Source: a virus. Taken from it: a stretch of 23,649 nt of DNA. Shown piece by piece: positions 3,001 through 23,649 of the stretch. The stretch covers positions 1 to 23,649 of IMG/VR virus record IMGVR_UViG_3300026203_000009. One strand, given 5' to 3'. Every line of letters begins with the position of its first letter. Position 1 is the stretch's first letter. The position numbers and the translations under genes were made by a program. A model generated the notes under the pieces. It did no database searches and was not told the origin of the DNA. It was given only the letters and a program-made list of their open reading frames with translations.

Positions 3001-3537
3001 ATCAAAGCACTTGTTGGTCTCGCACGTATTGATGTTAAGAATGCAGGACAAGGATATGTACAACCTACAGTTACTGTTTCAACAACAGTTGCAGATACAT
3101 TCTTAGGACCTACAGGTGAAGGTGTTAATGGTGGTATTGATATCTACGATCCTAATTACGTTCCAACAGGTGAATCTCAAGCACAAGGTGAATCATTCAT
3201 CAATATTGCTTCTCAACCAGTTAACGTAACTGTTAACCAAGGTCAGATTGCTGCATTTACTGTGGTTGCAACTACAACACCTAGTGGTAATTTGATTAAT
3301 TATCAGTGGCAGAAGAAGGATTACGGAACTGACACTTGGATAAATATTGTTGGTGCTACATCAAGTGTTTACACTACTCCTGCTACAACTCAGGGTGATG
3401 GTGGCGATGAATTTAGAGTCGGATTAACATCCACAGGTGCTACACCTATACTCTCTAACGCTGCTACATTGACAATCAACATCGGTGCAACAACTGTTGA
3501 TAACTTCACACCTGACCAAATATTCGATGACAACTAA
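1..3537 (+). CDS. Giant virion structural protein, 5'-truncated (modular, Ig-like C-terminus)
   Basis: Frame 1 is open from the first base to a TAA at 3535-3537, so the true start is probably upstream; the TTG/ATG at bases 1-6 has no visible ribosome binding site. At least 1178 residues are present. The first ~300 are not assignable to a named family. Residues ~400-580 and ~713-738 hold degenerate 'GE..TSGA' beta modules. Residues ~750-910 hold two tandem modules with a 'vNGilQ-pG ... F-eaP-aGs-f' pattern (FVNGILQPPG, then QLNGVIQEPG), resembling the FNGILQ segment of T4 gp10. Residues ~971-1035 carry two SGxGY repeats, and ~1067-1161 an Ig-like domain with the core YQWQ and no disulphide. 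Its place upstream of the gp10-like and gp8 genes recalls T4 gene 7, but no sequence match to gp7 was recognised. Inferred role: baseplate-peripheral or fibre structural protein. The stop overlaps the next start by one base (TAATG). Confidence 0.85.
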   Translation: MMNITVNLFDSSNTSNPRSYLDNITRTLPGEWPLTGERASVRDTTITYDTAGNGECAVVASSINTLFSIPIGVIREAAAGNGSYLVNQSITKTSTPIPYSSGNTLFSGGGICYNVTSAATTLADLIEDTLGGAPEMYRQAAKLLMFNHEYIDKEAYYKSVNNYSGYAAEIVFGTNIRKAMIYDIITGGNIATIQLVNSWFDSNGNFVAYPGVFRTYLIYHAEAIKEYMVNTVEQDCLNPGPNNSEVPYTNRELRPTATAVHKIHQLFHLVMTGLEKSSLPTVYLTEPVDVGVAVNTDGSIDSVGHKFEAYDLVNYIVLGTAITELDRSQYYIHPNTTANKIYLAEYIDGDVITSLTPGSAGQIHTFSVGVNNGIERVETTYGTRDIPTPIGGGINTADIFFGGTSGAYAEVIRIQDNLAQVLYKVEYVPVTHTSGAVKFTNGEVIVKTGATGNSGTVLATDNATYIKIVMTSGTFANSDNLEGVTSGATATASASPHKRILVNFKQGEFIATDIIYSKQDSGKANALIVRNNDGSLLDNQSGRVTYDVSTVVGSFEPGDVIYGSVTDQIIEVEGFNQLPNFGEYLHTTTITRFTYSALITDTGVSDTFQVGDTLQLQNAGQSVGHTFVVTEHDADNNYVYLANETGRFSAIGDDLTVVAGDAAYTLSKIPAGSNFPSVYTQGIAAVTITNTSAYGRIEKIEQIGIRAIIHLGDTSGTFVKNAQIIGDYGFRGACSVAKTLRGRVRRFFRGFDGVQKNFKLTQTNGTAYFPDPAGHMMIFVNGILQPPGGNNAFTAFSDNIQFTEAPAAGSSFHGVYVGKLRQLDDISFDFDSLRNSFNLKLAGVFYSLTLTDGVQSNTILPENNIICQLNGVIQEPGIGFELVGSRIIFSEVPRAGSTFVAFSYVGSDVDVIAATVVPPIESGDNLFIEGEEFEREVALIESSNSLITFEYTGSVRGRNADALATIEKGRITEAILTNSGDGYTSRPNVDVISSSGFGGKIKALVGLARIDVKNAGQGYVQPTVTVSTTVADTFLGPTGEGVNGGIDIYDPNYVPTGESQAQGESFINIASQPVNVTVNQGQIAAFTVVATTTPSGNLINYQWQKKDYGTDTWINIVGATSSVYTTPATTQGDGGDEFRVGLTSTGATPILSNAATLTINIGATTVDNFTPDQIFDDN

Positions 3538-5285
3538 TGGCAGCAGAAGGTAGTTACAATCCAGCGACGAAGATATTAACCATAACAGGTGATGGGATGC
3601 CAACTCCTGTAGCTTATGGTACATTTCCTAATGAAAATAATCCAAACACAGTAGCAGCATATACTTTCAATCATTCTTTCTTGTATAGAGGTGGTGAAAA
3701 TACAACTGGTGCTAGTTCAGTTCCATTAGGTATTGTTGGTTTTACTTCTAACGGTGTTGCTATATTTAATCCCAGTGCTGGTTCTGGTGGTAGTCCTCCT
3801 ACAGGATTTCATTGGGTTGCCACTGCTGACTATGGAATGGTTAATTTTGGTGAAGATAGTTATGGTGGACATCCTGAGTCAACTGGACAGTATCATTATC
3901 ACGATGGTGAACTTTTAACTGGTTTAAAAGAGAACCAGGTAATGAGTTCATATAATGATTACTATGGTCAGAGTCAATTTGGACAAGATAATTTACGTCA
4001 TCCTGATGGACATTCTAAAATAATAGGATTTGCATTTGACGGTTATCCTGTATATGGACCATATGGATATAATTTACCAACAGATAATACTTCTCCAGTA
4101 GTGCTTATGGAGACAGGGTATCAAATGAGAAGTAGTATTGCTACTAATCGTCCTGCATATGGTTTAACTTTAGCAAACCCTCCTAAAGGATCTTTGATGG
4201 AGGATTATGAATATAACGTTAGCAAACCAGGTAGACATTTAGATGTTTATAATGGTCGTTTCTGTCATACTCCAGAGTTTCCAAGTGGAACATTTGCATA
4301 TTTTATAACATTGTGGAGTGATGAAACTGAATCAAAAGAGTATACAGTAACTGTTACAAGTGAATCAAATGGTAACAAATACAGAATTGATGGCGTACTT
4401 TATCCAAACTTAACATTTGTTAAAGGTAGTACATATAAGTTTATACTTTCTGATAATAGTGTTGCTAATCACCAATTATTATTTTCTGATGCGAGTAATG
4501 GTTATCACGGTGCTGGTACAACATACACAACAGGTGTAACTACAGTAGGATCTGCTGGTAATGCTGGTGCATATACTGAGATCACAGTTGCTCAAGATGC
4601 ACCGTCACAACTGTATTATTTCTGCTCTCTTCATTCTAATATGTCTGAGAGTAGTGTAATAACTGTGGTTCCTAATCGTCACCTGACTCCTAAGTTTCCA
4701 TACATATTTGGTCTTTCATCAAAACAGACGCTAAATATACCTAGCAACCAAGGTGTTGGTGCACCTCCTGCTAGTGGAGGTGAAAGTGAAGGAGGTAGTG
4801 GCACACCACAAACACCTAGTCTGGTAATTACAAATCAACCTACCAATGCAACTATTGCTGATGGTGGTACACAAACTTTCAGTTTGATTGCTGTAATTGA
4901 ACCTGAAGCTGGTACTATTGCTTACCAGTGGCAAGTATCTACCGATGGTGGATTTACTTGGGCTAACCTTACAGGACAGAATAACTCTTCCTTACAAGTA
5001 GTAGCACAAGCGTTTATGTCAGGTTACAGGTATAGATGTGTGTGTATAGGTCCTGTTGGAGAACAGACACAAGCATCTAACTCACCTCTTGCAAGTAACT
5101 TAGCAATCCTCACCGTAACAGGTGGAACGAGTCAACAAGATACATCTGGTATTTTGAAGTGGGACAGTAATGTCGGTAAATTTGATATGACTTCAGTTCC
5201 TTTTGATAGGGACAATAATAACCCAGACTTTACTAGAAATAATATTAGACTTGACGCAACTAATTATGAATTCGACCTTACATAA
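3537..5285 (+). CDS. YHYH-domain virion protein with cupredoxin-like and Ig-like domains
   Basis: This is a 582-residue protein. Residues ~30-255 form a YHYH domain: the signature YHYHDGE is at 119-125, GFAFDGYPVYGPYG at ~163-177, and the closing TPEFPSGTFAYF near 245. Residues ~268-380 look like a cupredoxin: His312 (NHQLLFS), then Cys363-x2-His366-x2-Met369 (YYFCSLHSNM), a full potential type-1 copper ligand set. Residues ~427-530 are an Ig-like domain (YQWQ, TWANL) closely similar in pattern to the C-terminus of the upstream gene. A ~50-residue Asp/Asn-rich tail ends the protein. The YHYH family occurs in marine bacteria and phages; its biochemical role is not established as far as I know. 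The ATG overlaps the upstream stop (TAATG), suggesting translational coupling. A virion role is inferred from context. Metal binding is an inference from ligand spacing, not shown. Confidence 0.9.
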   Translation: MAAEGSYNPATKILTITGDGMPTPVAYGTFPNENNPNTVAAYTFNHSFLYRGGENTTGASSVPLGIVGFTSNGVAIFNPSAGSGGSPPTGFHWVATADYGMVNFGEDSYGGHPESTGQYHYHDGELLTGLKENQVMSSYNDYYGQSQFGQDNLRHPDGHSKIIGFAFDGYPVYGPYGYNLPTDNTSPVVLMETGYQMRSSIATNRPAYGLTLANPPKGSLMEDYEYNVSKPGRHLDVYNGRFCHTPEFPSGTFAYFITLWSDETESKEYTVTVTSESNGNKYRIDGVLYPNLTFVKGSTYKFILSDNSVANHQLLFSDASNGYHGAGTTYTTGVTTVGSAGNAGAYTEITVAQDAPSQLYYFCSLHSNMSESSVITVVPNRHLTPKFPYIFGLSSKQTLNIPSNQGVGAPPASGGESEGGSGTPQTPSLVITNQPTNATIADGGTQTFSLIAVIEPEAGTIAYQWQVSTDGGFTWANLTGQNNSSLQVVAQAFMSGYRYRCVCIGPVGEQTQASNSPLASNLAILTVTGGTSQQDTSGILKWDSNVGKFDMTSVPFDRDNNNPDFTRNNIRLDATNYEFDLT

Positions 5286-5288
5286 ATA
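5281..5288 (+). promoter_or_regulatory. T4-type late promoter, CATAAATA (7 of 8)
   Basis: CATAAATA differs from the T4 late consensus TATAAATA only at the first base and overlaps the TAA stop of the YHYH gene. With T4 spacing (motif at -13 to -6), transcription would start near 5294, leaving a ~19-nt leader with no Shine-Dalgarno sequence but a run of six C before the ATG at 5313. It sits in one of the few intergenic gaps, in the right orientation. Confidence 0.65.
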
Positions 5289-5312
5289 AAAACGTAGAAT
5301 AACCCCCCTACT

Positions 5313-6962
5313 ATGGCTAAACAGAATCTTAATATTGGTGTAAGTGCCAATGATGGAACAGGTGATACCCTGAGAGACGGTGCTATAAAACTCAATAATG
5401 TTATAAACGAGTTATATACCTATCTTGGCGATAACACCAACCTACAAGTTTCCATTGGATCACCATCAACAAACCAAGTCCTAAAATGGAACGGTTCAGT
5501 ATTTACTGAAGGACAACTTGCTGCATCTAATCTGACAGACGTGGACGTTAGTGGGGTTACTAACGGACAGGTTCTTAAGTGGAATACTGCAAATGCTCGC
5601 TGGCAGCCAGGCGACGATCTACAAGGTGGTGGTGGCGGTGGTTCATCAATTACTAACCTAACCAATAATGGTTCTGGTAACGTTGTTGTAAATACTCACT
5701 TCTTACCTAATAGTGATAATACATTTGATCTTGGATCTACAACTCTAAGATTCCGTGATGGTTATTTTACAAACGCATCTATCTTCTTGGGTGATACTGC
5801 TATAAGTGCAGATCCAACTACACAAGAATTACAAAGAAAGAAAAAGAAAACACATACTGTAGAAAGTATTAACACAGGTGCAACTAGAACTGTATCATCA
5901 AAACTATCTTCTGAAGACTCAACACAAGAAGAACAATTCAGAACTCGTTTTAGTGCTATGACAGCTGGTACTAAGTTGCATATTGAAGATTCAACTGGTG
6001 CAAAGGCAGAGGTTGATTTTGCATCATTTACTGCTGAAAACGGTGGTGCACGTGGTTTTATTACTGTTACTGCTGCTGGTGCAAACCAATCTCAGGAATT
6101 GTCAACCACAAACCCTGTTCATATAACATCTGTCAATAAGATGTTGAGTGAAGATGAAACAGGTACAGTTTCAATAACAGGACAAAAATTAGATTTTGGT
6201 AGTAGCAATACTATTGAATTTGATGGTTCTGGTAACTTACAGATTCCAGAGTCTGCTGAAATTAAATTTGGTAGTGGTGCAAATAAAAAACTATCATTTG
6301 ATGGTAGTGACAACTTGATTCTTGCTGCTGGTACAGATATTCAGTTTGGTGCTACTAACAAAATTAGTATGGACGCATCTGGTAACTTAACAGTTCCAGA
6401 CGGTGAATTACGTTTTGGTACAAGTGCACGTAAATTAAAAATTGATACTGATGGAAACTTAGAACTTCCTGCTAACGGTACAATTAATATTGGTACCAAA
6501 AAAATGAAGATTGGTACTAATGGTGATCTTGAAGTTGATAATGGTAGTGGATTTAATGAGATTGGTGGTGGTATTGGTTCTCAGTTGAACAATGCTCCTG
6601 CTGGTTCTTCTATTATTAAAGGACACGATAACTCTACTATCTACAAACCATCTCCAACAATTTTATATGTATTCACTAATAATGGTATGACGAATTACAT
6701 AGTAAATGGACCTGGCTCTGCAAGTAATGCTGCTAATGGTCCTCTTGTAGTTCATAGAGGATTCACTTATGATCTTAAGAATGCTGCTGGTGGTCATCCA
6801 CTAGAACTCAGAGTTTCTGATCAAGGTTCAGAATATACAAGTGGTGTATCAGGAAGTAAAACAGCACTTCAAGTTTGGACAGTCCCATTCGATGCTCCAA
6901 ACACCCTTTACTATCAATGCACATCACACCCTGCAATGATAGGTACAATCACAGTCAAATGA
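5313..6962 (+). CDS. Baseplate fibre protein: gp10-like N-terminus, beta-repeat shaft, C-terminal cupredoxin-like domain
   Basis: This is a 549-residue protein. The N-terminus (MAKQNLNIG, DGTGDTLRDGAIKLN, NELY) aligns well with the start of T4 gp10 (MKQNINIG, DGTGDYLRKGGIKIN, DELY), a baseplate wedge/tail-pin protein, but the rest does not resemble gp10. Residues ~75-105 contain an NGQVLKWN/W linker and a GGGGG hinge; ~136-168 a 'DLGSTTLRFRDGYF ... IFLGD' fibre module; ~173-177 a Lys-rich tract (RKKKK). Residues ~291-412 hold about five repeats of 22-26 residues, each roughly 'I-FG ... k-I-DGSGNL-vP', probably a beta-helical shaft. Residues ~445-549 look like a cupredoxin with His495 and Cys536-x2-His539-x2-Met542, ending seven residues before the stop. 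No Shine-Dalgarno sequence precedes the ATG. Inferred: a fibre or tail-pin analogue docked by its gp10-like domain, with the cupredoxin-like domain at the other end. Confidence 0.85.
   Translation: MAKQNLNIGVSANDGTGDTLRDGAIKLNNVINELYTYLGDNTNLQVSIGSPSTNQVLKWNGSVFTEGQLAASNLTDVDVSGVTNGQVLKWNTANARWQPGDDLQGGGGGGSSITNLTNNGSGNVVVNTHFLPNSDNTFDLGSTTLRFRDGYFTNASIFLGDTAISADPTTQELQRKKKKTHTVESINTGATRTVSSKLSSEDSTQEEQFRTRFSAMTAGTKLHIEDSTGAKAEVDFASFTAENGGARGFITVTAAGANQSQELSTTNPVHITSVNKMLSEDETGTVSITGQKLDFGSSNTIEFDGSGNLQIPESAEIKFGSGANKKLSFDGSDNLILAAGTDIQFGATNKISMDASGNLTVPDGELRFGTSARKLKIDTDGNLELPANGTINIGTKKMKIGTNGDLEVDNGSGFNEIGGGIGSQLNNAPAGSSIIKGHDNSTIYKPSPTILYVFTNNGMTNYIVNGPGSASNAANGPLVVHRGFTYDLKNAAGGHPLELRVSDQGSEYTSGVSGSKTALQVWTVPFDAPNTLYYQCTSHPAMIGTITVK
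6180..6552 (+). repeat. Protein-level tandem repeat (about five units) in gp10-like fibre
   Basis: Five consecutive units of 22-26 residues share the pattern 'I-FG (few residues) k-I-fDgsGNL-vP'. Unit cores read FDGSGNLQIP, FDGSDNLILA, MDASGNLTVP, IDTDGNLELP and IGTNGDLEVD. The DNA is only partly conserved between units (frequent 'ggtaactta' near each NL), so this is an old, diverged repeat. A beta-solenoid or trimeric beta-helix shaft is the likely structure (inference). Confidence 0.75.
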
Positions 6963-18098: not shown

Positions 18099-18139
18099 TC
18101 TTGGAGGCATATTGTCCGAAATGTAGGATACCATAACCA

Positions 18140-21100
18140 ATGGCAAATAGAATTCAATTAAGACGTGATGGTGCTCAACAGTGGGCAAACATCAACCCTA
18201 TCTTGGCACAGGGTGAACTTGGTATTGAAATTGATACATCACGTATTAAAATCGGGGATGGAGTAACTCCGTGGAATAGTTTAAGATATGAGAGACCACT
18301 AGAAACAGAATCAAACGCTGCTAATACACTTGTAAAAAGAGACGCTGATGGTAACTTCCAAGCTGGTGCTATAACTGCAACAGTTATTGGTAACGCTGCA
18401 ACTGCCACACGTCTTGCTAACGCTAGACAAATTCAACTTGCTGGTCAGGTTACTGGATCAGGTTCTTTTGATGGATCATCTAACCTTACATTAACAACTG
18501 ACTTATCATTAATAACAACACTTCCACATTATAATCCTGCTGATCCTGATGCTAGTGATCTATACACTCGTGTTAGGGTTAACTCACAAGGTAGGGTTAT
18601 TGGTGCTGAACTTGCATCTACACTTGCAAACTATGGTATTACTGATGCTCAACCATTAGATGATGACTTAACATCATTAGCAGGACTATCTACAGTTGGT
18701 TTACTTGCTAGAGTATCACAAGGAAATATAACCACTAGACAGTTAACTGGTGGTGCAGGAAGAATTATATTCACAGTACCTGATGGTAGTTCACAGAACC
18801 CATTCATTGATCTTGCTGACACAGCAGTTGTTGTTGGTTCATATAACGTTGAATCATTAACATCTGTTAATGCTGCTGGTAGTAACTCAGAACCATATGG
18901 TACACAAACTGTTAACACAACCAAGTTTAGTGTTGATAGATATGGTCGTATTACATTAGCAGAGAACGTACCTATTGCTACAGCAGTAGAAGGATCTAAG
19001 TATGCTGGTTATGATGCTGGAACTACATATGCTCGTTATGCCATAATTGCAAATGCTTCTAAGGTATATCAAGCTATTCAAACTATTTCTGCTGGTGGTG
19101 GAGCACCTACTCATAGCACAGGTGATGCAAATGGTTGGAGATATTGTGCTGCTGAAGGAACTGAACAAAAAGGTCTTGCATCATTTGCACAAGAAGATTT
19201 TGATGTAGATGCTAATGGTCACGTAACCATTGCTGCAATGGGTGTTGATAATACTCAGTTACAGAATAATAAAATTACATTTACTGATGGAAATACAGTT
19301 CAAGATTTTGAATTAGATAATGAACTAACAACTTCCACTGCACATACAGGATTTGATTATCTTAATTATGTAAAAGTAAATAGCACTTCTGGTGGTCTTC
19401 TCTTCAGTGCTAATAACACCGATAATAGTAATGCTGGTGGAGTAGATATCAATGTCGATACAAATATAAGTGGTGCTTCTATAAAACTTGACAGACCAGG
19501 TAACACTCCTCTACAAACTATTGAGAGGACTGCTGGTTCACTTAAAATTCATCACAATGTCTCTTCCTCTACTGATAGAACGCTTGATATTATTTCAAAC
19601 AACGCTGGTGCTGGTACTGCTAGTATTAACATTACAGCAGACGAAGACATAACAATATCATCGACAAATGTTTCAAATCGTGTTAATGTAGAAGGATTCC
19701 AATTCCAAGACGATACTTTAAGTAGCACTGCTACTACTATGATCTTGGATCCAGGTGACGACGATGCTGCAACTGGTAAAGTTCAGATTCGTGGTGACTT
19801 ACAAGTAGATGGAACTACAACAACAGTTAACTCTACTGTTGTAACTATCGATGATCCAATTATGGTTCTAGGTGGTGACACTGCTCCTGTTGCAGATGAC
19901 AACAAGGATCGTGGTGTAGAGTTTTCTTATTATGATACACAAGCAAGGGTAGGTTTTTATGGATGGGACGAAAGTTACGCAGACTCTAATATCTGGAATG
20001 GCACTGGTGGCTTTAGGTTCCTCTACAATGCCACTAACACCAATGAAGTATTTACTGGTACAGACGCTGCTCTCATCGCTGGCAACCTCAGACTAACAAC
20101 AAACACAGGTGCTTCATCAACTACAACTGGTACATTAGTTGTAACTGGTGGACTTGGACTTTCCGAGAACGCACACGTTGGTGGTACTGTTACAGTTGCA
20201 GGACAGACAGAAATTAATAACAATGTAATATTTAAAGCAGATAATAAATCATTTAATATACAGACTGCTGCGGGTGTAGATAAGTTTACAGTTGATACAG
20301 ATAATGGTAATACAGTTATTGAAGGTACATTAGATGTTCAGTTAGAAACAACTATAACTGACAATGTAATCATAAAAGCAGACAATAAGAAATTTGATAT
20401 TCAAACTGCTGCTGGTGTCAGTGTATTTGATGTAGATACTGACAACGGTAACACACATACAGATGGTACTCTTGATGTAGACAGTGGTGTTACATTCAAC
20501 AGTACCCTTGATGTAGATCAAGCTACAACTCTAAACAACATATTAGATGTTGATGGCATTTCTACATTCCATAATGACATTATACTTGATACAACTGGTA
20601 AGACCTTTAAATTAAATAATGGATCTGCTGATAAATTTGTAGTACAAAGTACATCTGGTAATACAGATATAGAAGGATCATTAAATGTTGCATCTTTAAT
20701 TCACTTTGAAAGTAGCGATACTCCAACAATAAGTACAGATGGAGATAACAATTATATAATTACAGGTAGTGACTATGGTGCTCTAAGATTAGATGGTGGT
20801 GGTTATATTGAAGGTAATACACTATTCAATAGTGATATTTACATCAACGGACAAATAAATCAGAAAGACCAAGGTTCATCTAACGAGACATTCAACACAC
20901 AGAACTTCTTAAGAGTTCGTTATAAGTTCAGAACTGGTGTAACAGCCGCATATACTCCTTCCTATGCACAAGATAACTCATCTAACTTTAGATCCTTTGG
21001 TGGTGGTGGTATTGCTACTGATCTTCACATCGGTGATAACCTATACGTTGGTAAGAAAGCAAACACAGATAACATTGAGTTTAGTGTCAGTCCTGCTGGT

Positions 21101-23649
21101 AACGTCGTTGCTGGTAGAAGTGGTCTGGGTTCAGCAAGTGCTGGAACAATTACAGTCCACGGAGATGCAGTATTCAACCGTGAATTCAGCATTACAGGAG
21201 CTCAAACAACTATTGGAGATGCGACAGGAGATGCCCTCTCAGTCAACGCTACAAGCACATTTAATGCACCTGTTACCCTTTCTGGAACTAACGATTTAGA
21301 AGTTGGTGGTAATGCTACTGTTGAAGGAAACTTAACTGTTAATGGTACTACAACTACAATCAATACAGTTACAACTCAGTTAGATGATCCTATTCTAACT
21401 CTTGGTGGGGATACAGCACCAAACACAGATGATAATAAAGATCGTGGTATTGAGTTTAGATATTATGATGGTTCAGCAAAATTAGGTTTCTTTGGTTGGG
21501 ATGATTCACAATCAAGATTTGCTCTATATCATAATGCAACTAACACATCTGAAGTATTTGGTGGTACAAGATCTGGTATTGATGCTGGTTCTATCAAGTT
21601 ATTCGATACAACTAATGCAACATCACCTTCTACAGGAACATTAATTGTTGGTGGTGGTGCTGGAATTGGATTGGATCTTAGAGTTGGTGATGATTTATTC
21701 GTTGTTGACGATGCAGATATTGGTGGTAACTTAAATGTCACAGGTACATTTGATGTTGGTGATGATCTAGCAGTTGCAAATAATAAGTTTAACGTTGACG
21801 CAGTAACTGGTAATACAACTGTTGCTGGAACATTTGGTCTTACAGGTATTGCAACACTCAACTCTACTGTTAATATTGTTGGATCAGGATCTAATTTAAC
21901 TGTTGCTGGAACTACAAGCATATCTGGTGACTTTGATATTGCTTCTACTAAGTTTACAGTTGCTGCTGCATCTGGTAACACAGTAATTGATGGAACACTA
22001 GACGTAGATGAGGCAACAAATATAACATCCACATTTGGTGTTACTGGAATTGTTACTGCCACAAACAGCACTGCACAATCTTTAAGTTCTGGTTCTCACT
22101 CTGCTGGTGGTGCATTTAGATTAACAGGTGGTGCAGGAATAGGTGGAAACGTTTCTATCGGTGGAAGTGCAAGAATATACACAGACTTAACTGTTGATGA
22201 TGATTTACTTGTTAAAGATGTTGGTGAAGTTCAAGGATTATTCAAAGCAACAAACACTGCTGACGCTGGATCTGCCACAGATACTGGTGCTTCAGTTCGT
22301 ACTGCTGGTGGTTTAGCAGTTGCTAAGAAAACATATATTGGTGATGACTTCAATGTAGGTGCAGGAAACTTCACTGTTGACGGTCCTACTGGTAATACAA
22401 CTATTGCTGGAACATTAGGTGTAACACAGAACACAAACCTATCTACATTTACTGCATCAGGTATTGCTACACTTCAATCTACATTGAATCTAGGTGGTTC
22501 ACTGAACATCAATAGTAGTAAATTTACTGTTGCATCTGTATCTGGTAATACTAATATTGCTGGAACTTTAGATGTTACAAACGCAGTTGACTTCGATTCT
22601 ACTCTTAACGTAGATGGTAATGCTGACTTTAACAGTGGTATAGATGTCACATCTGGTAATGCTACATTTGCTGGTCTTGTACAAGCAGATAACGTAACTG
22701 ATTCTACTGGATACTCTGATGCCTCTGCATCTATATCTACAGATGGTGGTCTATCAGTTGCTAAGAAAGCATACGTTGGTGGTAACTTCTCTGTTGGTGG
22801 TGCTGCTGGTGTTAAAGCATCTATCACTGCTGCAACTGGTAACACAGATATTAAAGGAACATTAAATGTTGATGACGCTGTAACCTTCGGTGGAACTCTT
22901 GGAGTTACAGGTCAGATCACTGGTGATGTAACTGGTGACGTAACAGGTAATTCTGATACTGCAACACAGGTTGCTGTTACTGAGACTAACAACAACGCAC
23001 TGTTCTATCCTGCATTTATGGGTGGAAACACTGGTAATCAGTCAGTTCACGTTGACTCTGCTAACCTTAGATACAACCCATTCTCTAACACTTTATCAGT
23101 AACTAACTTTATATCTACTACGAACTTTGAAGTTCAAGGTAATATGAACATTACTGGTTTGATTACCTTCGGAGAATCTGAAGTTGGTAGTATTGCAAAC
23201 CACAACACTGATGCACTTACTGAAGGTTCAACTAACCTATACTTTACAGACGAACGTGTAGATGACAGAGTAAACAATCTATTTACTGCTGGAACTGGTA
23301 TTACTAAGGTATATGATGATGCTGCTAATAGTTACACATTATCAGTTACACAAGTAGATATTAATACTGACAACGTAACTGAAGGTTCTACAAACCTCTT
23401 TACAACTGCTGCAAGAACAAGAACACATTTTGTATATGGTACAGGTATTCAGTTAAACACAGATACTATTTCTGTAACACAGAGTGATATCAATACAGAC
23501 AATGTAACTGAAGGTTCTACAAATCTATTCACAACAAATACAAGAACAAGATCTCACTTCACTTATGGTAATGGTATTGCATTATCTGCTGGTGGTGAAC
23601 TAACAGTAACTGAATCTCAGATCGATACTGACAATGTAACAGAAGGATC
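18140..23649 (+). CDS. Giant tail fibre protein, 3'-truncated by the window
   Basis: The frame is open from the ATG at 18140 to the window end with no stop, giving at least 1836 residues. The N-terminal ~52 residues (RIQLRRDGAQQWANINP, LAQGELGIEIDTSRIKIGDG, TPWNSL) match the N-terminal domain type seen in phage fibres and the major tropism determinant. Residues ~60-120 hold a classic fibre module (RDADGNFQAGAITA, GNAATATRLANARQI, then GSFDGSSNLTL). Residues ~288-340 resemble a CBM5/12-like fold (weak). Two copies of a 'DDPI--LGGDTAP--DDNKDRG-EF-YYD' module start near 556 and 1067. At least eight 'kFtV-----GNT-i-GTLdV' repeats lie between ~715 and ~1575. A second TATA-type fibre segment is near 1590-1660, followed by tandem TEGSTNLF repeats to the end. 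The low-complexity, Asn/Thr/Gly-rich beta content fits a trimeric fibre. A C-terminal receptor-binding tip or intramolecular chaperone is expected downstream but not visible. It likely determines host recognition. Confidence 0.9.
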   Translation, partial: MANRIQLRRDGAQQWANINPILAQGELGIEIDTSRIKIGDGVTPWNSLRYERPLETESNAANTLVKRDADGNFQAGAITATVIGNAATATRLANARQIQLAGQVTGSGSFDGSSNLTLTTDLSLITTLPHYNPADPDASDLYTRVRVNSQGRVIGAELASTLANYGITDAQPLDDDLTSLAGLSTVGLLARVSQGNITTRQLTGGAGRIIFTVPDGSSQNPFIDLADTAVVVGSYNVESLTSVNAAGSNSEPYGTQTVNTTKFSVDRYGRITLAENVPIATAVEGSKYAGYDAGTTYARYAIIANASKVYQAIQTISAGGGAPTHSTGDANGWRYCAAEGTEQKGLASFAQEDFDVDANGHVTIAAMGVDNTQLQNNKITFTDGNTVQDFELDNELTTSTAHTGFDYLNYVKVNSTSGGLLFSANNTDNSNAGGVDINVDTNISGASIKLDRPGNTPLQTIERTAGSLKIHHNVSSSTDRTLDIISNNAGAGTASINITADEDITISSTNVSNRVNVEGFQFQDDTLSSTATTMILDPGDDDAATGKVQIRGDLQVDGTTTTVNSTVVTIDDPIMVLGGDTAPVADDNKDRGVEFSYYDTQARVGFYGWDESYADSNIWNGTGGFRFLYNATNTNEVFTGTDAALIAGNLRLTTNTGASSTTTGTLVVTGGLGLSENAHVGGTVTVAGQTEINNNVIFKADNKSFNIQTAAGVDKFTVDTDNGNTVIEGTLDVQLETTITDNVIIKADNKKFDIQTAAGVSVFDVDTDNGNTHTDGTLDVDSGVTFNSTLDVDQATTLNNILDVDGISTFHNDIILDTTGKTFKLNNGSADKFVVQSTSGNTDIEGSLNVASLIHFESSDTPTISTDGDNNYIITGSDYGALRLDGGGYIEGNTLFNSDIYINGQINQKDQGSSNETFNTQNFLRVRYKFRTGVTAAYTPSYAQDNSSNFRSFGGGGIATDLHIGDNLYVGKKANTDNIEFSVSPAGNVVAGRSGLGSASAGTITVHGDAVFNREFSITGAQTTIGDATGDALSVNATSTFNAPVTLSGTNDLEVGGNATVEGNLTVNGTTTTINTVTTQLDDPILTLGGDTAPNTDDNKDRGIEFRYYDGSAKLGFFGWDDSQSRFALYHNATNTSEVFGGTRSGIDAGSIKLFDTTNATSPSTGTLIVGGGAGIGLDLRVGDDLFVVDDADIGGNLNVTGTFDVGDDLAVANNKFNVDAVTGNTTVAGTFGLTGIATLNSTVNIVGSGSNLTVAGTTSISGDFDIASTKFTVAAASGNTVIDGTLDVDEATNITSTFGVTGIVTATNSTAQSLSSGSHSAGGAFRLTGGAGIGGNVSIGGSARIYTDLTVDDDLLVKDVGEVQGLFKATNTADAGSATDTGASVRTAGGLAVAKKTYIGDDFNVGAGNFTVDGPTGNTTIAGTLGVTQNTNLSTFTASGIATLQSTLNLGGSLNINSSKFTVASVSGNTNIAGTLDVTNAVDFDSTLNVDGNADFNSGIDVTSGNATFAGLVQADNVTDSTGYSDASASISTDGGLSVAKKAYVGGNFSVGGAAGVKASITAATGNTDIKGTLNVDDAVTFGGTLGVTGQITGDVTGDVTGNSDTATQVAVTETNNNALFYPAFMGGNTGNQSVHVDSANLRYNPFSNTLSVTNFISTTNFEVQGNMNITGLITFGESEVGSIANHNTDALTEGSTNLYFTDERVDDRVNNLFTAGTGITKVYDDAANSYTLSVTQVDINTDNVTEGSTNLFTTAARTRTHFVYGTGIQLNTDTISVTQSDINTDNVTEGSTNLFTTNTRTRSHFTYGNGIALSAGGELTVTESQIDTDNVTEG
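19808..21730 (+). repeat. Two copies of a ~150-residue fibre module, ~511 residues apart
   Basis: Copy 1 begins near 19808 (DGTTTTVNS, DDPIMVLGGDTAP, DNKDRGVEF, YGWDES, NATNTNEVF, GTLVVTGGLGL). Copy 2 begins near 21341 (NGTTTTINT, DDPILTLGGDTAP, DNKDRGIEF, FGWDDS, NATNTSEVF, GTLIVGGGAGI). The order of all motifs is conserved, so this is a segmental duplication within the fibre gene. Copy 2 lacks a short Asn/Gly insertion near the middle of copy 1. Confidence 0.85.
20282..22880 (+). repeat. Dispersed 'FtV-x-GNT-x-GTLdV' fibre repeats (at least eight)
   Basis: Units start near 20282, 20421, 20633, 21785, 21950, 22367, 22519 and 22810. Each has a Phe/Val strand, a Gly-Asn-Thr turn and a 'GTLdV' or similar strand (for example GNTVIEGTLDV, GNTTVAGTFGL, GNTTIAGTLGV, GNTNIAGTLDV, GNTDIKGTLNV). 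Several are followed by a second short strand pair (ATLNSTVNI, ATLQSTLNL). DNA similarity between units is high around 'actggtaatacaac' and 'gctggaac'. Confidence 0.8.
23210..23649 (+). repeat. Tandem TEGSTNLF repeats near the right edge
   Basis: TEGS motifs start at codons 23219, 23378, 23507 and 23639, giving periods of 53, 43 and 44 residues. The last three units are nearly identical in DNA around the core (gacaaygtaactgaaggttc). Each unit contains 'D-NVTEGSTNLF-T--RTR--F-YG-GI-L ... l-vTqsdI'. The array is cut by the window end, so copy number is unknown. Confidence 0.85.

Follow-up and report, generated by a model that had tools for sequence, protein, structure and literature searches.

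The 23,649-base virus record IMGVR_UViG_3300026203_000009, analysed here over its whole length (the window), carries two neighbouring genes, for a YHYH protein and for a gp10-like baseplate wedge or pin protein, each of which encodes a cupredoxin-like domain (domain A and domain B, respectively) of predicted fold and with a complete type-1 ligand set of His, Cys, His and Met, as confirmed by translation and structure prediction. The particle very probably displays the predicted type-1 copper sites, the one of the gp10-like protein being placed at the C-terminus, and the sequences and structural models indicate that the domain is probably a real copper-binding module on the particle. An earlier note, made from the DNA letters alone, had pointed to both domains, and translation returns the open reading frames (ORFs) and the eight ligand residues as it gave them (H312, C363, H366 and M369 in the YHYH protein; H495, C536, H539 and M542 in the gp10-like protein), as well as the distances from first His to Cys of 51 and 41 residues. 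Its name for the first protein is also right, with a PF14240 match of 113 bits against a cut-off of 25, and that for the second is supported by a match to the gp9/gp10 N-terminal family PF07880 (Table 1).

The two domains, each about 105-114 residues long, contain the only occurrence of CxxHxxM in their respective proteins, and their ligand columns coincide in the alignment. A profile in which the four ligand columns were masked to X matches the window at domain A (E 4.9e-44) and domain B (E 3.2e-24), with the next match at E 1.3. AlphaFold2, given alignments of 41 rows, produces models with a mean predicted local distance difference test (pLDDT) score of 97.0 for domain A and 92.9 for domain B, and cupredoxins rank first for both when the models are compared with the PDB by Foldseek, in agreement with the proposal that both genes carry such a domain. 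For domain B the best matches are rusticyanin and nitrite reductase (E 2.3e-5), then pseudoazurin and amicyanin, and all 50 matches listed, which also include plastocyanin, purple cupredoxin and a chimeric CuA domain, are either cupredoxins or copper-enzyme domains of that kind; comparison by VIA gives Z 10.9 and a root-mean-square deviation (rmsd) of 2.2 over 92 residues to 2dv6. For domain A the best match is plastocyanin (E 2.1e-3, probability 1.00), most of the 50 matches listed are cupredoxins, the exceptions including semaphorin, aspartic peptidase and deiminase structures, and VIA gives Z 8.6 and an rmsd of 2.6 over 96 residues to 2dv6, tied with small laccases. Judged by its sequence, the gp10-like copy is the stronger of the two, its loop tlyyqCtsHpaMigti aligning gap-free with tydyhCtaHpfMrgkv of amicyanin (P94A variant) and efdyiCtlHpwMkgti of nitrite reductase; further entries for amicyanin cover this same stretch in their alignments, and C536 is the sole cysteine among the 549 residues of the protein. 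Convergence of the four side chains in space, which the earlier note had also proposed as a criterion, is addressed here through the predicted fold and the loop alignment.

Retention of the ligands was followed in loci fetched by the N-terminal 48 residues of the gp9/10 domain, a query that holds no ligand. The best 80 of 558 such loci contain 83 distinct ORFs with this N-terminus, of which 16 are cut at a contig end and were dropped; 50 of the remaining 67, complete at the 3' end, bear the cupredoxin domain, and none was found in the other 17. Cys, His and Met are kept in all 50 domain-bearing ORFs, as CxxHxx[MQ] in 48 and as C-x4-H-x2-M in two, the upstream His lies 34-62 residues away in every one, and the domain stands at the C-terminus in 46. 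The first calling of these ORFs used a profile that included the ligands, and its repetition with the ligand-masked profile yields the identical 50, with the motif in 51 of 51 domains, at every cut-off from 1e-5 to 1. Their 20,231 residues include 55 cysteines, 51 of them the ligand, which is the only cysteine in 46 of the 50 ORFs. Among loci fetched by the stretch that lies between the first His and the Cys, the His and CxxHxxM are kept in 86 of 86 distinct matches, a count that leaves out matches starting beyond the first three profile positions and that is drawn from close relatives (the best 80 of 589, with middles 84-92% identical). A chance motif is rejected on the ligand retention and the cysteine counts, including the repeat with the masked profile.

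In a wider set, the masked profile recovers 264 distinct domains (from 413 matches, less 47 under 75% coverage and 102 duplicates), comprising 227 with the ligands His, Cys, His and Met (HCHM), eight HCHQ, one HCQM and 28 without Cys. All four positions are kept in 235, counting Gln for Met in eight, a share that is inflated because some of the patterns that fetched the loci held ligand residues (two patterns in one set of six and one in another) and because the profile was trained on ligand-bearing rows. The second His and the Met are missing from all 28 domains without Cys, of which one has an axial Gln and ten keep the first His. When the domains are clustered at 60% identity, 30 of the 38 representatives keep four ligands, two keep one and six keep none; were the ligands lost independently, the marginals predict that about 21 of the 38 would keep two or three. 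Counted by members, 27 clusters are all intact, three mixed and eight without an intact domain, figures in which the clusters are not independent because the losses represent few lineages or events. Of the 28 ligand-less domains, 18 lie around residues 550-690 of a long protein whose gene follows that of the gp10-like protein, and nine are found in a protein type of 1,193 residues. The earlier note had named freely varying Cys and Met on a conserved fold as evidence against its idea; this is not what these domains display, since the ligands are lost as a set and at particular paralogous positions. The codons of the 227 HCHM domains vary silently (TGT 129 and TGC 98 for Cys; CAT/CAC 120/107 and 123/104 for the two His). 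Taken together, the retention seen in ligand-independent searches supports a selected metal site. The seemingly invariant columns of the two 41-row alignments carry no weight in this respect because 16 of the 57 representatives were left out of both (12 ligand-less or truncated, four HCHM with an unusual middle), and a further alignment of 19 rows consists of ligand-bearing rows only.

Two variations on the site are found in the same set. The axial Gln of the eight HCHQ domains (e.g., loci L136, L057 and L104) would predict a different potential, an axial Gln being a feature of stellacyanins. At loci L094, L105 and L129, an intact and a ligand-less cupredoxin occur within one long chain encoded after gp10.

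The gp8 protein of the window is 80-83% identical to those of Synechococcus phages S-WAM1 and S-SZBM1 and cyanophages P-RSM6 and P-TIM40, its nearest relatives by this measure, and the window is therefore most likely a cyanomyovirus, of the Kyanoviridae type as judged by gp8, with marine cyanobacteria, photosynthetic bacteria of the ocean, as its most likely hosts. Placement of the domain on the particle is supported by one of these relatives. According to PMC9146016, caesium chloride-purified S-SZBM1 virions contain SSZBM1_206 (498 residues, 9 peptides, 24.9% coverage), and the proteome also lists SSZBM1_207 with 1 peptide, SSZBM1_53 with 13 and SSZBM1_208 with 71. SSZBM1_206 is the gp10-like orthologue, with an intact HCHM domain at its C-terminus, and SSZBM1_207 is the YHYH homologue (phmmer E 1.1e-99). 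The claim that the particle displays metal-binding modules is thus sustained as far as a predicted fold, a selectively kept complete ligand set and orthologues on a related particle extend; that the sites are occupied by copper is likely.

Several results weigh against a copper-binding module, to which the inflated share of intact domains and the interdependence of the clusters also belong. The only curated copper family listed, PF00127, gives the gp10-like protein 12.6 bits against a cut-off of 21.2 and does not match the YHYH protein, so that membership is rejected and the domain would be missed by routine Pfam annotation, and individual alignment rows match curated copper families only weakly. 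The model of domain A has no Foldseek match at E 1e-3 or better, and the laccases that VIA aligns with it are about 9% identical. AlphaFold2 received only ligand-bearing rows and had learned from PDB structures, so its agreement with cupredoxins does not independently prove that a metal site exists. Furthermore, the cupredoxin domains of the virion-listed SSZBM1_53 and SSZBM1_208 have lost Cys, the second His and Met; the S-SZBM1 particle holds both intact and ligand-less copies, and copper is therefore not required for the presence of the fold on the particle.

If the copper-binding reading is correct, the His, Cys, His and Met set of both proteins would form a type-1 copper site once the particle is complete. 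The cupredoxin module of the gp10-like protein is the C-terminal end of the baseplate pin. T4 gp10 is a trimer present in six wedges, and a T4-like arrangement would give about 18 sites per particle. Copper would fix the shape of the ligand loop, so that the outward His and nearby loop residues might present a docking face for a partner on the host surface. Exposure of the gp10-like tip is moderately probable, and its role in docking is the favoured but tentative proposal; the intact ligand sets and the spread of related domains in marine phages suggest that copper may be located where the particle meets its host. Long tail fibres are lacking in S-SZBM1, S-WAM1, P-RSM6 and P-TIM40 (PMC9146016), and a host-contact role of the pin tip in the window is, by analogy with these relatives, more plausible. 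The most far-reaching version, in which about 18 type-1 copper centres, loaded with copper from the host or from sea water, form a ring at the rim of the cyanophage baseplate that engages or senses the host surface and is a main element of first contact in the group without long fibres, is unlikely.

Among the other explanations, the one that fares best is that copper is purely structural, locking a small beta-sandwich at the tip of the pin against sea water and light with neither a host-contact nor a redox role. Conservation of the domain at the terminal position across phages of different hosts favours this, as does the iron that HxH motifs are reported to hold at the tip of T4 gp37 (PMC11705849); against it, several copies have lost the whole site yet kept the domain, which implies that the fold does not always need the metal, and a type-1 set appears costly for mere stability. 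A purely structural role is unlikely. A redox role, in which reduction of a Cu(II)/Cu(I) couple at the host surface triggers the baseplate or the couple shields the particle from superoxide or peroxide, is decidedly unlikely: electron-transfer cupredoxins do use these four ligands and the Gln of the eight Gln-for-Met variants resembles the axial Gln of stellacyanins, but a partner, an electron path and a potential cannot be read from sequence.

A third explanation extends to copper the Trojan horse idea, already put forward for phages with iron as the metal (PMC11705849). Copper-loaded tips would engage a host copper-uptake receptor, by analogy with azurin in Pseudomonas, which interacts with the TonB-dependent transporter OprC and is a substrate of the H2 type VI secretion system (PMC6907878). 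Related domains are found in cellular genes of SAR86 (17 of 40 genomes from the family of one SAR86 genome), and lipoprotein-like starts were read in SAR86 and other gammaproteobacterial proteins (L321, L331, L355, L356, L357, L358, L361 and L378). The likely hosts of the window, however, are marine cyanobacteria, and a single motif pattern that matched 114 cellular loci, 80 of which were kept, gave no cyanobacterial title among those 80. This explanation is improbable. Equally improbable is a cupredoxin-derived adhesive sandwich without metal, in which Cys, His and Met are kept for packing: ligand-less relatives do sit in virion proteins, but the retention is all-or-none, the cysteine stands alone in 46 of 50 ORFs, Met, where Cys is kept, is replaced by nothing but Gln, and the ligands persist across two loop lengths.

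The nearest known systems differ from the copper-binding module proposed here in their context. Amicyanin and pseudoazurin share with domain B the fold, by Foldseek, and the gap-free CxxHxxM loop (the pseudoazurin compared, 2ux6, carries an engineered amicyanin loop), whereas they are soluble electron carriers and domain B, about 20% identical, is the end of a phage tail protein, with Pro after the first His in place of Asn. The N-terminal cupredoxin domain of Hyphomicrobium nitrite reductase (2dv6, 6tfd and 6tfo), the top VIA match of both models, is part of an enzyme, and no such enzyme is present in the window proteins. Cyanophage petE plastocyanin is likewise a phage-borne cupredoxin (PMC2984593) but a host-like photosynthesis gene; a petE-like auxiliary gene is rejected for the window because the domain is fused to structural genes. 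The iron of T4 gp37 likewise places metal on tail tips (PMC11705849), with another metal, fold and ligands. The YHYH domain of phage tails has been described as a predicted Zn-binding hydrolase (PMC7824862) and linked to host recognition (PMC7029224); in the available parts of these sources, the main text of the former has no occurrence of copper, cupredoxin or plastocyanin, and the terms copper and plastocyanin are absent from the latter, while the accessible portions of PMC3037559 and PMC10665884 hold nothing on a cupredoxin domain. Searches of an open-licence library that lacks most subscription journals turned up no description of a type-1 site that ends a phage baseplate protein as its terminal module, and none of the titles and abstract openings listed deals with cupredoxins of virions; the cupredoxin fold and the type-1 site themselves are already known.

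If copper is present, many viruses of the sunlit ocean would be metalloprotein particles with a new class of virion metal, and as colloids they would bind copper, an element that serves marine life as a nutrient and also harms it as a poison. Copper at the tip would also offer a new handle on cyanophage host recognition, above all in phages without long tail fibres, and the far-reaching version with a copper-bearing rim would be a copper counterpart of the iron Trojan horse idea. The copper claim can be tested cheaply with cultured phages.

The T4-type gp10 pin has the gp9/10 N-terminal domain in common with the window protein, whose gene neighbourhood resembles that of the gp10-like and gp8 genes of P-TIM40. 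This N-terminus, represented by its 48 residues, matches 1,425 phage records, 500 of them Escherichia phages, whereas the copper-like domain of the gp10-like protein occurs in only 326 of 50,697 records at E 1e-3, named Synechococcus (252), Cyanophage (50), Prochlorococcus (21) or Marine (3) phages, in line with the earlier suggestion that the fold is widespread in marine phages. The YHYH-type domain matches 21 records, including Pelagibacter phage Baldr, Methylophilales phages and P-SSM2. It is borne by 22 of 61 distinct YHYH ORFs, a rough figure because some of the ORFs are truncated and some loci had been retrieved by way of their cupredoxin, and the YHYH ORFs of P-TIM40 and S-WAM1 lack it. 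The two domains, put forward as a pair, are thus both present but unequal, given 326 against 21 phage records and the 22 of 61 ORFs, and the copy in the YHYH protein looks accessory. Residues H155, H159 and D168 of the YHYH domain itself are invariant across 58 aligned sequences.

Ten named phages, chosen for an earlier match to the domain or to the gp10 N-terminus, each have at least one intact HCHM domain (S-TIM5, S-B68, Melnitz-3, Baldr, S-ShM2, P-HM1, P-RSM1, P-SSM2, P-TIM40 and S-WAM1), and P-RSM1 has a ligand-less one as well. The domain matches number four each in P-SSM2 and P-HM1 and three each in P-TIM40 and S-WAM1, the weakest at E 1.2e-4, and a protein of about 735 residues in P-TIM40 and S-WAM1 has a domain without the Cys-His-Met loop. 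For the 80 cellular loci, the ligands are uninformative on retention because the fetching pattern contained the ligand motif. The domain also occurs in 2 of 147 genomes from the family of one SAR11 genome, and SAR11 loci L314 and L317 encode T7-type tail-fibre proteins with an intact copper-like domain, probably of prophage origin. A Porticoccaceae relative (L350:3527-5425) is fused to an imelysin domain, PF09375, a hint that the cellular form serves in metal uptake; a cupredoxin is also combined with the imelysin family in metal-uptake proteins of the EfeO type.

Table 1. Features of the YHYH and gp10-like genes (window positions; residue numbers refer to the respective protein)
Feature	Position	Strand	Evidence
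Virion protein with YHYH domain, cupredoxin-like domain and Ig-like segment, 582 residues	3537..5285	+	ORF list, domain searches
YHYH domain, residues 55-259	3699..4313	+	PF14240, E 2.2e-32
Cupredoxin-like domain A, residues 265-378	4329..4670	+	AlphaFold2, Foldseek, VIA, ligand-masked profile
His312, predicted copper ligand	4470..4472	+	Alignment column shared with the gp10-like His
Ligand loop C363-S-L-H366-S-N-M369 (CSLHSNM; Cys codon at 4623)	4623..4643	+	Translation
Ig-like segment (own sequence reading), residues 430-515	4824..5081	+	phrog_613, E 2.6e-5
gp10-like baseplate wedge/pin protein with C-terminal cupredoxin domain, 549 residues	5313..6962	+	phrog_677, E 8.6e-64; P-TIM40/S-WAM1 gene order
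T4 gp9/gp10-like N-terminal domain, residues 3-92	5319..5588	+	PF07880, E 1.4e-10, 42 bits, cut-off 25
Cupredoxin-like domain B, extreme C-terminus, residues 445-549	6645..6959	+	AlphaFold2, Foldseek, VIA, ligand-masked profile
His495, predicted copper ligand	6795..6797	+	Translation
Ligand loop C536-T-S-H539-P-A-M542 (CTSHPAM; Cys codon at 6918)	6918..6938	+	Column-by-column alignment with amicyanin and nitrite reductase

Several weaker matches were obtained for the two domains. The amicyanin family TIGR02657 is weakly matched by 7 of the 41 rows at E up to 0.1 (best 1.8e-4), with no match for the YHYH row of the window. A sequence search for solved relatives of domain A returns only two laccases at E 1.2, and the corresponding profile search gives no match below E 0.14. 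The top PDB sequence match of domain B, 9k9w (E 5.6e-6), a three-repeat protein that covers only residues 36-75 and whose separate repeats have i-values of 14 to 66, was set aside as spurious, and so was the urea transporter 8blo. Pfam matches to G8, CBM_4_9, At5g54830 and others are below cut-off or marginal and were left aside; the At5g54830 match, seen in 5 of 41 rows with a best value of 0.0049, may reflect a genuine remote relationship.

The two genes are the second and third of a baseplate gene run common to the window and to P-TIM40, S-WAM1 and S-SZBM1, all three classified under Kyanoviridae, in which a giant wedge protein, the YHYH homologue, the gp10-like protein, another of about 615 residues and gp8 are encoded, the gp10-like gene of the window being a neighbour of gp8 within the baseplate cluster. 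Upstream of its cupredoxin domain (5313-6644), the gp10-like gene encodes recurring motifs of the form SGNL.LP...I.FG....K...D, probably a repetitive stalk. An Ig-like segment, again by own sequence reading and with a phrog_613 match, lies close to where the giant wedge protein encoded upstream ends (3184-3477), and a giant repetitive ORF of 1,837 codons occupies positions 18137-23649 and is open at the end of the window.

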